Positions 2,959 through 21,040 of a stretch of 22,562 nucleotides of DNA are shown here, in pieces. The number at the start of each line of letters is the position of its first letter. Within the stretch, counting starts at the first letter, position 1. The notes under the pieces are model-generated. The model saw only the letters and a list, made by a program, of their open reading frames with translations. It was not told the origin of the DNA and did no database searches. This DNA is from a virus. Location of the stretch: positions 1 to 22,562 of IMG/VR virus record IMGVR_UViG_3300042691_000979. One strand, 5' to 3'. Both the position numbers and the translations under genes were made by a program.

Positions 2959-3381
2959 ATGGCCGGTCGGGCAGGCGCGGGGCGCTACTCCGGCAAGCTG
3001 TTCGAGGAAGCGGTGCGGCGCGCGGCGTGCGCGCAGATCCGCGCGGGCGACCAGAAGGGCTGGCGCAAGCTCGACGCGATCGCGCTTCGCCTGGTCGACA
3101 AGGCGGTCGACGGCGACCTCGAGGCGATGAAGACGGTGGCCGAGCGCCTCGACGGCAAGGCGGTGGCGCACATCGAGGCGTCGGGCGACGGCTCGCTGCT
3201 GGCGGGCTTCGCGGCGATCCTGGCGGCGGTGAACGAGGAGCGCCGCCGGCGCGCCGAGGGCGGCGAGCTCGAGGCGCCGATCGTGGACGTGACGCCCGAC
3301 AATGGTGCAATGCAGCAACACGCGGAAGTAGAGCAGCCCGATCCCGAGGGCCTCGAAAGTGCAGAAAAGCCCGTGGAATAA
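2959..3381 (+). CDS. Putative terminase small subunit, 140 aa
   Basis: This is a mostly helical protein with a basic N-terminus. Residues 38-77 (LDAIALRLVDKAVDGDLEAMKTVAERLDGKAVAHIEASGD) carry the pattern of small-terminase-like proteins of many proteobacterial phages, in which a GD-xx-A-x-K-x-x-x-x-R-L-D-G-K stretch follows a DNA-binding helical start. The C-terminal 45 residues are acidic and probably disordered. TerS proteins bind the packaging site and pass DNA to the large subunit; the neighbouring large terminase gene supports the call. ATG at 2959 is chosen over the upstream TTG at 2854 because the promoter-like elements lie between them and the protein pattern starts after it. A non-TerS DNA-binding protein remains possible. 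Confidence 0.55.
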   Translation: MAGRAGAGRYSGKLFEEAVRRAACAQIRAGDQKGWRKLDAIALRLVDKAVDGDLEAMKTVAERLDGKAVAHIEASGDGSLLAGFAAILAAVNEERRRRAEGGELEAPIVDVTPDNGAMQQHAEVEQPDPEGLESAEKPVE

Positions 3382-3402
3382 GGGTTTCGCATTTTCGATA
3401 AT
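3374..3402 (+). promoter_or_regulatory. Weak candidate promoter for the large terminase
   Basis: GATAAT at 3397-3402 (5 of 6 to consensus) sits 17 bases after TGGAAT at 3374-3379 (3 of 6). It lies in the only AT-rich patch of the gap (3391-3411), which also forms an ATAAT/ATTAT inverted repeat with short TCG/CGA extensions (3395-3415). If used, it would give the large-terminase transcript a leader of nearly 400 nt. Confidence 0.3.
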
Positions 3403-3469
3403 CATCATTATGCGATGGTGCAGCGCACACTCGCTGCAATCTCAACGACTTGCGCGAACCGCGCTCAGA

Positions 3470-3544: not shown

Positions 3545-3556
3545 GGATGGCCGCGA

Positions 3557-3648
3557 CGCGCTAGGATGACTCAGGAGCAACGGAAGGCGCGGGGTGTATT
3601 CAGCCTGCGCTACCGCGGCTTCCCGCGTTCCTGAGTCATCCTAGCGCG
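3557..3648. repeat. 92-nt element with perfect 20-bp terminal inverted repeats
   Basis: Bases 3557-3576 (starting CGCGCTAGGATGA) are perfectly complementary to 3629-3648. Inside, CGCGGG at 3588-3593 can pair with CCCGCG at 3622-3627. AGCC plus GCG at 3602-3609 can pair with CGC plus GGCT at 3614-3620, closing a four-base loop. The whole element can therefore fold into one long rod on either strand. There is no flanking target-site duplication that I can see and no transposase. It may be a structured RNA, a packaging site, or a very small non-autonomous repeat element. Confidence 0.7.
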
Positions 3649-3805
3649 ATTGCGCGCCATCGGCCGCCTGCCGGGCGCCGGCCGGCCGCCGATCGGCACC
3701 TGGCCGGACCCCCCCCGGCCTCCCGGCCGCGGCGGGGGCGGCGGCTGCAGCGGCCCGCCCAGTAGCACCCCCCCCTACCGGGGCCTCGACACCAACCGGA
3801 GTCCC

Positions 3806-5242
3806 ATGCCCCCCGCGAAAAAGATCGCGAAGCAGGCGACCCCGACCGCCGACGAGTTCGCGCAGCTGATCGCCGCCTGGGCGGACGACCCGGTGCTGTT
3901 CGTGAAGACGGCGCTGCAGGCCACGCCGGAGCCCTGGCAGGCGAAGGCGCTCGAGGCGGTGCGCGACAACGACAAGGTGGCCATCCGCTCCGGCCACGGC
4001 GTCGGCAAGACGACCTACCTCGCGTGGCTGGTGCTGTGGTGGCTGATGACCCGCCACCCGGCGAAGATCGCCGCCACGGCGAACACGGCGCACCAGCTGT
4101 CCGACGTGCTGTGGTCCGAGATCGGCAAGTGGCACCGCCGGATGCCGGAGGTGCTGCGGCGGCTTCTCGAGGTGAAGAGCGACAAGGTCGAGGTTGCCGG
4201 CGTGCCGGACAGCTTCGCGGTGGCCCGCACGGCCCGGCGCGAGCAGCCGGAGGCCCTCCAGGGCTTCCACAGCACGAACATGCTGTTCGTCATCGACGAG
4301 GCGTCCGGCGTGGACGACCTCGTGTTCGAGGTCGGGCAGGGCGCGATGTCGACCGCCGGCGCGAAGACGGTGATGACGGGCAACCCGACCCGCACCAGCG
4401 GCTACTTCTACGACGCGTTCCACCGCATGTCTGCGTCCTGGCACACGATGAAGGTCGGCTGCGCGGACAGCACGCAGGTGTCGCCGGGCTTCCTGGCGGA
4501 GATGGCCCAGCGCTACGGCGCGGGCTCGAACGTCTACCGCGTGCGGGTGGAGGGCGAGTTCCCGCTGGCCGACGACGACAGCGTCGTGCCGGCGCATCTG
4601 ATCTCCGCGGCGATGGACCGCGACATCGAGCCTGCGCCGACCACGCCGATCGTGTGGGGCCTGGACGTTGCGCGCTACGGCGACGACCGCTCCGCGCTGG
4701 CGAAGCGCCAGGGCGAGCGTCTGATCGAGGTGAAGACCTGGCAAGGCGCCGACCTGATGGAGACGGCGGGCCGGATCTTCAACGAGTACAGCGTCTGCAA
4801 CTTCAAGACCCGGCCGGCGGCGATCTACGTCGACTCGATCGGCCTGGGCAGCGGCGTGCTGGACCGGCTGCGCGAGCTCGGGCTGCCGGTACGGGGCGTG
4901 AATGTGTCGGAGGCGCCGGCCGTTGGCGAGCGCTACCTGCGCCTGCGCGACGAGCTGTGGTTTCGCGTGCGCGAGTGGCTCGAGGCGCGCGGCTGTTCGT
5001 TGCCGGACGACGACGAGCTGGCGGCGGAGCTCGGCACGCCGCGGTTCAAGATCCTGTCGACCGGCAAGCTGAAGGTCGACTCGAAGGACGAGATGAAGAA
5101 ACGCGGCGGCAAGTCGCCGGACAAGGCGGACGCTGTCTGCCTGACGTTCGCGGCGAATGGCGCGGCGTTGTCCACGGGCTCGAGCGGCGCGTGGACATGG
5201 AAGAAGTCGCTCGACTACGGCCAGGGGGCCTGGATCGTATGA
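3806..5242 (+). CDS. terL: Terminase large subunit (ATPase/nuclease)
   Basis: This 478-residue protein has both modules of a packaging motor. In the ATPase half, Walker A is SGHGVGKTT at residues 62-70, Walker B with the catalytic Glu is MLFVIDEAS at 159-167, and a coupling-type TGNPT lies at 191-195. In the nuclease half, RNase-H-fold acidic residues are visible at D287 (GLDVARYGDDRS), D343 (YVDSIG) and D439/D442 (SPDKADAV). It cuts concatemeric phage DNA and pumps it into the prohead through the portal. Length is normal for the family. ATG at 3806 is chosen because homology starts soon after it and GGAG lies at 3798-3801; the open frame extends to 3650 but that part is low-complexity Pro/Gly. 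The stop overlaps the next start (ATGA at 5239-5242). Confidence 0.96.
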   Translation: MPPAKKIAKQATPTADEFAQLIAAWADDPVLFVKTALQATPEPWQAKALEAVRDNDKVAIRSGHGVGKTTYLAWLVLWWLMTRHPAKIAATANTAHQLSDVLWSEIGKWHRRMPEVLRRLLEVKSDKVEVAGVPDSFAVARTARREQPEALQGFHSTNMLFVIDEASGVDDLVFEVGQGAMSTAGAKTVMTGNPTRTSGYFYDAFHRMSASWHTMKVGCADSTQVSPGFLAEMAQRYGAGSNVYRVRVEGEFPLADDDSVVPAHLISAAMDRDIEPAPTTPIVWGLDVARYGDDRSALAKRQGERLIEVKTWQGADLMETAGRIFNEYSVCNFKTRPAAIYVDSIGLGSGVLDRLRELGLPVRGVNVSEAPAVGERYLRLRDELWFRVREWLEARGCSLPDDDELAAELGTPRFKILSTGKLKVDSKDEMKKRGGKSPDKADAVCLTFAANGAALSTGSSGAWTWKKSLDYGQGAWIV

Positions 5243-19057: not shown

Positions 19058-21040
19058 ATGGCGGAGATCGACTACGGCAACGACCGGCTCGTGGCGCCGG
19101 CCGGCGGCGGCTCGCCGCCGGCAATCAACTACGGCACCGACCGCATCGTGCAGCCTGGCTATGGCGGCATGGACGTCGACACGAGAGGTGCTCCGGGCTC
19201 GGTCAGGGCAGCAGTCGGCGGCGCGCCGCAGGCAGACCGACTGGCGACGCTGCGCGCATACTTTCCAGACGCGCGTCCATTCGGGCCGGATAATTTCATC
19301 TACACCGATCCGCAGACCAATCGACCGACGCTGTACAATCCGCGCGGCCTGGATGTCGGCGACCTGTACAGCATCAGGCCAGAGGCGGCCGAGGCCGTCG
19401 GCGGCTTTCTAGGTGGAATGCTTGCCGCGCCGGTTGCTGCTCGCATGGCACCGCAGACCGGCGGGAAGTCCATTTCGATTGGCATTCCCGCAGTCGCCGC
19501 CACCGGAGCGACCGCCGGCAGGGAACTCGAGAACCTGTACGCGACCAACGTCGAGGGGCGCGTCGACACGCGATCTGGCGGGCGCCAAGCCGCAGACGCC
19601 GCGACGACGTTCGGCGTCAACGCGGCTGGCGGGTATCTCCTGCCAATGCTGGCGCAGGGCGCGAAGCGCGTCCTCGGCGGCGGCGGTCAGGTTGCGGCCG
19701 AAAGGCTCGCCGCTTTCGAGCGCCAAGACGTCACGCCGCGCGCAGGTGCTGTCTCTGGCAGCGGCGTCATCCAGTCGGCAGAGAGCGCAGCTGGTTCGTT
19801 CGGCGGCGCCGGCGTGATGAAGGACGCCTACTCGAAGACGATCGACGAGGTGACGGCGGCCGCGCGCAAGGCCGCCAGCAACACCGGCACGATCATGGAG
19901 GGGCAGGGGCTTGCCGACACGCTGCGCCGCGGGCTCCAGCAAGCCGGAGAGCGGTTCCGCGATCGGCAGGAGACGCTCTACGGCAACGTCTACCAGTTCT
20001 TCGGCAAGCAGACGCCGATCAAGGTCGACAACACGCTCGGGTTTCTGCAGCAGGAAACAGCCGCTTTTGCTGGCGCTCCTGAGATGCAGAAGAAGCTCGG
20101 CGCGGAGGCGATGGATTACCTGCAGAGGCTGCAGAAGGACGCTGCCGGCGGCACCATCCCCTTCGAGGTCGTTCGCAAGCTGCGAACCGAGATCGGCGCG
20201 CGTCTCGAGCGCCCCGTGCTTGTCGGCGACGAGAGCAGGTCGCTGCTGAAGCAGATGTACAAGTCTCTGTCGGATGATCTCGACGCCGGCATTGCCGGTG
20301 CTTCGCCTGGCGCGCAGAAGCAGTGGGAACTCGCGAACCGCTACACGCGCGTGCAGATGCAGCAGCAGCTCGACTTCGTCGAGAAGATGGCGACGCAGGA
20401 GTTCGACAAAAAGGTCTTGTCGATGCTCAACGGCGAGCTTGGCAAGGACGGCGGGCAGCTGCTGCGAAAGATCCGCTACAACCTGACGCCGGAGCAGTTC
20501 GACGACGTCGTGGCATCGGTTGTCGCGCGCACCGGCGTCGATCCCAAGACCGGCGCGTTCTCCCCCGCTCGGTTCACTACCGAATGGGGAAAGATGTCGT
20601 CGGAAGCCAAGGGCGCGCTGTTCGGCGGCCAGCGCTACAACGAGTTGCGCCAGTCGCTCGACGACATCGCGAAGATCTCTGGCGCGCTTGAAGACAGCGC
20701 GAAGATGCTCAATCGGTCCAACACTGGCCGCGTCGCCCTGTTCTCGACCCTGCTCGGCATGGGCGGCGCCGGCGCCAGCGCCGGCATGGAGGGCGCTCTT
20801 GCGACAGCAGCTGCTGGCGCCGGCGGGTTCGCAAGCAGTTACGGCGCCGCCAAGCTGCTTGCGAACCCGACATTCGCAAAATGGCTGGCGAGCGGAATGA
20901 AGATCGGAGGCGGGCAGGACGCGGTCGCCGCGCACCTTGGCCGCCTCGCCTCTGTCGCGGCGATCGAGCCCGAGCTCAAGGACGTCATCAACCAGTACGA
21001 GGCCGCCGTGCGATCGGCGTTGCCGCAACGGCAGAGGTGA
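19058..21040 (+). CDS. Large putative ejection (internal virion) protein, 660 aa
   Basis: This is the largest of the ejection cluster. Residues 4-12 and 23-32 are two copies of an I-x-YG-x-DR-x-V motif. LRAYFPDARPFGPDNFIYTDPQTNRPTLYNPRGLDVGDL (about 64-102) is a start shared by many podovirus internal-virion proteins. A glycine-rich hydrophobic region follows at 110-155, then long helical stretches. Near the end there is a hydrophobic Gly/Ala segment (about 560-605) followed by LLANPTFAKWLASGMKIGG, also typical of these proteins. No transglycosylase or peptidase motif is visible, unlike T7 gp16. The likely role is to form the channel or enter with the DNA. Its stop is followed three bases later by the fibre gene. 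Confidence 0.78.
   Translation: MAEIDYGNDRLVAPAGGGSPPAINYGTDRIVQPGYGGMDVDTRGAPGSVRAAVGGAPQADRLATLRAYFPDARPFGPDNFIYTDPQTNRPTLYNPRGLDVGDLYSIRPEAAEAVGGFLGGMLAAPVAARMAPQTGGKSISIGIPAVAATGATAGRELENLYATNVEGRVDTRSGGRQAADAATTFGVNAAGGYLLPMLAQGAKRVLGGGGQVAAERLAAFERQDVTPRAGAVSGSGVIQSAESAAGSFGGAGVMKDAYSKTIDEVTAAARKAASNTGTIMEGQGLADTLRRGLQQAGERFRDRQETLYGNVYQFFGKQTPIKVDNTLGFLQQETAAFAGAPEMQKKLGAEAMDYLQRLQKDAAGGTIPFEVVRKLRTEIGARLERPVLVGDESRSLLKQMYKSLSDDLDAGIAGASPGAQKQWELANRYTRVQMQQQLDFVEKMATQEFDKKVLSMLNGELGKDGGQLLRKIRYNLTPEQFDDVVASVVARTGVDPKTGAFSPARFTTEWGKMSSEAKGALFGGQRYNELRQSLDDIAKISGALEDSAKMLNRSNTGRVALFSTLLGMGGAGASAGMEGALATAAAGAGGFASSYGAAKLLANPTFAKWLASGMKIGGGQDAVAAHLGRLASVAAIEPELKDVINQYEAAVRSALPQRQR

Follow-up and report, generated by a model that had tools for sequence, protein, structure and literature searches.

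What is the role of the long inverted repeat that separates the two terminase genes of an uncultured phage? The window (the whole stretch of DNA that was analysed, 22,562 nucleotides) is a 22.5-kb fragment of a podovirus-like phage genome encoding SU10-type portal, capsid and adaptor proteins. A preliminary description of the locus offered three options: a structured regulatory RNA, a packaging site and a tiny non-autonomous mobile repeat. The first is the best supported of the three, by the retained and compensated pairing in relatives and by a bias towards the + strand. The element is real, conserved and structured, it is confined to a small phage clade, and it is ordinary in kind. It is apparently a structure without an earlier description.

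Position and predicted fold of the element

The element is situated in a 424-nt gap between the stop of terS at position 3381 and the start of terL at position 3806. It is co-directional with both genes and is near the start of a late module that extends in the same direction for at least 18 kb. The features of the region are as follows.

2854-2883, + strand: promoter-like site TTGACA-N18-CATGAT upstream of terS, not kept in every relative
2959-3381, + strand: putative small terminase gene terS, 140 aa, assigned by position and a weak, below-cut-off match to DUF5681
3378-3432, + strand: Box A, a conserved palindromic block right after terS, with the core TTTTCGATAATCATCATTATGCG at 3392-3414
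3549-3658, + strand: whole rod-like hairpin; every pair of the + strand RNA fold of lowest energy falls within it
3557-3576, + strand: left arm of 20 nt, CGCGCTAGGATGACTCAGGA, which varies more than the right one
3601-3609, + strand: inner block CAGCCTGCG, part of the loop and of the 3' side of the upper stem, invariant in all nine aligned sequences
3629-3648, + strand: right 20-nt arm, TCCTGAGTCATCCTAGCGCG, nearly invariant
3709-3775, + strand: C-tract/G-tract cassette, a neighbour of the hairpin, found in 47 of 54 TerL relatives and absent from contigs L029 and L031
3806-5242, + strand: large terminase gene terL, 478 aa (PF03237, phrog_2/5902), with relatives that are 88-93% identical

A GGAG ribosome-binding site lies just upstream of terL. 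The stretch was thought to be gene-free, and no credible gene does cross the element. Every frame contains a stop in both the window and contig L024, and the frames differ among relatives. A protein-coding element was therefore ruled out, there being no frame that is open throughout. Only the window, L022 and L029 conserve the promoter-like site, which is replaced in G001-G003; this limited conservation counts against an RNA role. Given such a site 5' of terS, the hairpin would lie in a + strand transcript, with the nearest promoter-like sequence about 700 nt upstream of it. The interval 2854-2950 also holds a conserved inverted motif 5' of terS. Box A is 85-95% identical in relatives, and its counterpart in distant relatives has the similar sequence CATAATGGACCTTATGCG.

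The two 20-base arms are perfect inverted copies of each other, exactly as first described, and the opinion that chance hardly gives such a repeat was sound: about 2e-5 arm pairs of this kind are expected in the window from its base composition, with loops of 3-100 nt. They form the longest close inverted repeat of the 22.5 kb, the runner-up being 15 bp long. When folded as RNA, the segment 3547-3658 has an energy of -83.2 kcal/mol (z = -10.8), and none of 200 shuffled sequences was equally stable. The lower duplex of the minimum-energy fold joins 3557-3578 with 3627-3648 as 22 continuous base pairs, one of them G-U, and is extended outside the arms by five further pairs (3552-3556 with 3650-3654) across a 1-nt bulge. 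Above the 22-bp duplex there is a 3x3 internal loop, followed by an upper stem in which 3582-3586 pairs with 3619-3623, 3588-3592 with 3613-3617 and 3593-3598 with 3606-3611, closing on the loop 3599-3605. These upper pairs differ from the inner pairs proposed earlier (3588-3593 with 3622-3627, and 3602-3609 with 3614-3620). The predicted fold is a single rod having no branch points, as had been supposed, but it is longer than the supposed 92 nt, since the pairing reaches from 3549 to 3658. Elsewhere in the window, an inverted repeat of 15 bp (20824/20855) occurs in the region 20761-20870, within an open reading frame at 19058-21040, where the local fold is very stable.

GC-rich sequence folds readily, and the hairpin could on that ground be a product of chance or a bidirectional intrinsic terminator having no other role. 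The small expected number of such repeats and the conservation of the structure speak against chance. A T-run follows neither arm, a terminator scan found nothing at the element, and the intrinsic terminator was rejected as a candidate for want of the combined GC-rich hairpin and T-run. Both versions of this explanation are extremely improbable.

Distribution among phages

Relatives were gathered from IMG/VR by terminase similarity and by motif scans. The element is present in nine contigs (the window, L021, L022, L023, L024, L025, L028, L029 and L031), which represent about four lineages with TerL proteins that are 88-100% identical. Each of the nine has one copy, invariably in the terS-terL gap. 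The nine sequences were used to build a covariance model, R1, which recovers the element in every one of these contigs; applied to 80 loci, four longer relatives and the contigs from the final motif scan, R1 detected no further copy. Weak matches in G001 and G002 (E 0.19 and worse) were left out of the counts. The element was not found in more distant TerL relatives. A pattern scan of 84,980 bacterial and archaeal species genomes did not detect the right arm, and a search of the same genomes for a terL relative, a host or a prophage found none. No Rfam covariance model scored above its gathering threshold; the matches below threshold were to miRNA-type rods, which are meaningless here. The matches of a 14-mer scan were mostly scattered chance matches within coding sequence.

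This distribution bears on the suggestion that the element is a small non-autonomous mobile repeat of the REP or MITE type. Perfect terminal inverted repeats are in keeping with such an origin, and the 15-mer TAGGATGACTCAGGA recurs in five marine phage contigs that are unrelated. However, each genome has a single copy, which is always at the same locus, the pattern occurs in none of the 84,980 genomes, and the marine matches are limited to the 15-mer and a short motif. Other matches to the 15-mer are mostly scattered and single. The mobile-repeat option thus found no support, as there are no dispersed copies and the place of the element is fixed; we consider it very improbable.

The marine contigs (L006, L013, L014, L015 and L017) carry the arrangement TAGGATGACTCAGGA-N17/19-GTGTATGATCCTACC near an integrase gene and share CTAGGATGACTCAGGA with GTGTATGATCCTACC downstream. 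The same contigs have an identical block of 47-52 bp near the integrase, which may be an attP site. Order and orientation in L006 are unlike those in the other four. There is no terL nearby and no C/G-tract cassette in these contigs, and the motif is not kept in their relatives, including 19 integrase relatives. The match was therefore treated as unrelated or due to chance, and is probably unrelated to the element.

Genes for an S24-type repressor and a phage integrase are present in the close relative contig G002, and the phage group is therefore probably temperate. Long perfect dyads are known at single-strand origins, resolvase sites and attP sites, and in a phage group having these genes the hairpin might serve replication or recombination. 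The integrase of G002 is, however, about 10.7 kb away from the element. There is no overlap with a tRNA, and the right-arm block is in no bacterial genome scanned. An attP site was rejected because the element is not adjacent to the integrase and the right-arm pattern has no bacterial attB match. A replication or recombination hairpin in general appears improbable.

Conservation of the fold and the strand it favours

Identity to the more distant relatives is 87-93% in the right-arm block (3627-3656) and 63-80% in the left-arm block (3549-3578). The spacer preceding the element has an identity of only 38-52% to the same relatives, so that the hairpin stands out as a conserved island. Even with 22-31 differences from the window in about 108 sites, the sequences of relatives have fold energies of -67 to -77 kcal/mol and keep the lower duplex with mismatches. 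Sequences mutated at random to the same extent have a mean of about -42 kcal/mol, and none of 300 controls per sequence matched the observed value. Standard pairs occupy 95.2% of the pair cells; sliding the structure by 1-3 columns lowers this to 33-42%. Changes on both sides are seen in four pairs (8 cells), whereas shuffles gave 2.5 +/- 1.2 and none of 500 was as high. As the independent lineages number only about four, and the doubly changed pairs likewise four, this covariation is suggestive. Retention and compensation of pairing in the relatives indicate that the element is held for its fold. Lack of conservation, or drift of the arms without compensation, had been named as grounds for abandoning a function, and neither was observed, even though the left arm still drifts more than the right.

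The number of variable columns is about 8 in the left arm and about 2 in the right. Selection for a plain duplex would not predict this difference, which counts against the RNA explanation preferred below. As judged from the alignment, the right arm and CAGCCTGCG are under a constraint that goes beyond the fold, suggesting that their sequence is also read by some protein or RNA.

The consensus fold has an energy of -58.1 kcal/mol and 39 pairs on the + strand, and -37.6 kcal/mol and 31 pairs on the complement. In every sequence, + strand RNA is more stable than - strand RNA by 9-20 kcal/mol, against about -2 +/- 6 in the random-mutation controls, but these values were computed on structures predicted with + strand RNA energies, and the bias partly favours itself because the pairs were chosen by those energies. 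When the two arms are taken by themselves, G-U departures are about as frequent as A-C ones; with DNA parameters, only L029 shows more than a small strand bias. Taken together, the modelled energies favour a single-stranded + molecule, that is mRNA or, less likely, single-stranded DNA, over a dyad in duplex DNA.

Since the fold was kept while the sequence changed, the element is probably a regulatory or processing element of mRNA and not a mobile repeat. The explanation that we prefer, tentatively and with slightly less than even confidence, is that the terS-terL transcript contains a cis-acting hairpin, in the simplest case a signal for RNase III-type processing or for mRNA protection. Transcription of the + strand would run from terS across the gap into terL and the late genes. 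The transcribed gap would then fold into a rod whose lower duplex of 22-27 bp is nearly continuous and is followed by an internal loop and the upper stem. This rod might be a processing signal of the RNase III type or might form a barrier by which the 5' end and the stability of the terL mRNA are set, and in either case the expression of terL would be uncoupled from that of terS. The action of RNase III on the hairpin is suggested by its shape alone. In L029 and L031 the hairpin ends 29 nt before the ATG of terL, just upstream of the GGAG. If the explanation is true, an intergenic hairpin would be a simple point of post-transcriptional control for the terminase subunits, whose amount and timing of synthesis have to be right; annotation at the level of genes misses such RNA control points.

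The hairpin might also be an undescribed phage RNA device, recognized by sequence in the terminase transcript and bound by a terminase subunit or RNA polymerase, which would tie expression of terL or of the late operon to the state of packaging. This is unlikely.

Comparison with known phage systems

The packaging-site option is best examined by comparison with Sinorhizobium phage phiM5 (MF074189), whose TerL is 50% identical in amino acid sequence to that of the window and which has a direct terminal repeat in the same place, just upstream of terL. The annotated repeat is 357 bp long and ends 36 nt before terL. The end of the repeat coincides with the C-tract/G-tract cassette, which in the window is situated about 60 nt downstream of the hairpin. 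This cassette consists, upstream of terL, of a C-tract, a short loop, a G-tract, often an ATAT-rich motif, and another C-tract. Its members include L032-L065, C72C1 (L191) and phiM5 (L192), and its tracts are the only C or G runs of at least 7 in the window. G001 (L031) has no C or G run of this length in 29.5 kb. As the end of the phiM5 repeat (...ACCCCCCCCCGCCC..GGGCTGGGGGCAGCGCATATATC) matches the cassette, the terS-terL gap is probably a genome-end region. Inspection of contig ends relative to terL showed no alignment on one base, and no similarity was detected between terS and genes of phiM5 or C72C1. Short direct terminal repeats are likewise present in the LUZ24-like phage tf, which belongs to the broader morphological group (PMC3517423).

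A packaging role is possible, given the correspondence of the region with the annotated phiM5 repeat; the hairpin or its arms would then act as DNA, either as part of a TerS-binding site or as part of the genome-end site. The near invariance of the right arm is what would be expected of a DNA site bound by a protein. Among phages with a phiM5-type TerL, though, the hairpin was found only in the nine closest contigs. The TerL family as a whole lacks it, phiM5 has the cassette but no long hairpin of such kind in its repeat, and L029 and L031 keep the hairpin without the cassette. The better pairing of the + strand is likewise not predicted by binding to duplex DNA. The stronger part of the packaging-site option is the correspondence of the region with the phiM5 terminal repeat; the weaker part is the assignment to the hairpin, since the cassette is likely the terminus feature of the TerL family. 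Packaging is the main rival to the RNA explanation, but we regard such a role of the hairpin itself as doubtful. The family-wide cassette, being a probable mark of genome ends, could help to predict packaging sites in uncultured phages.

A second comparison is with the putL and putR RNAs of phage HK022, which are about 70 nt long, form two stem-loops and exert their effect in cis over 10 kb or more (PMC9378689). As RNA, the element would likewise be structured, comparable in length and able to act in cis on a long operon. It might alter how RNA polymerase or the ribosome behaves for the late operon, by antitermination of the put or EAR type, or be an autoregulatory hairpin bound by TerL or TerS. 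The early position of the hairpin in the late module, the long-range precedent of HK022 and the conservation of the right arm and CAGCCTGCG beyond pairing are in accord with such action. The put RNAs, however, are near early promoters and have two stem-loops, whereas the element is one unbranched rod between late genes and does not belong to the class of about 70 nt with two stem-loops. Its distance from the nearest promoter-like site and the lack of an Rfam match also weigh against this explanation, which seems fairly unlikely.

The closest resemblance of an RNase III-type or protective hairpin is to the sites in phage T7, where RNase III cuts mRNA precursors at hairpins, of which the early transcript has five (PMC4858673). 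R1.1 and the other T7 sites are long imperfect hairpins between co-transcribed phage genes, and the present hairpin would occupy a similar place, assuming that terS and terL are co-transcribed. Stems of the R1.1 type exceed about 11 bp of duplex and frequently include an internal loop, and the element, having 22 + 5 bp and a 3x3 internal loop, agrees with this description. It differs from the T7 hairpins in that it belongs to another phage group, no sequence relation being shown, and in that its lower duplex is longer and nearly perfect.
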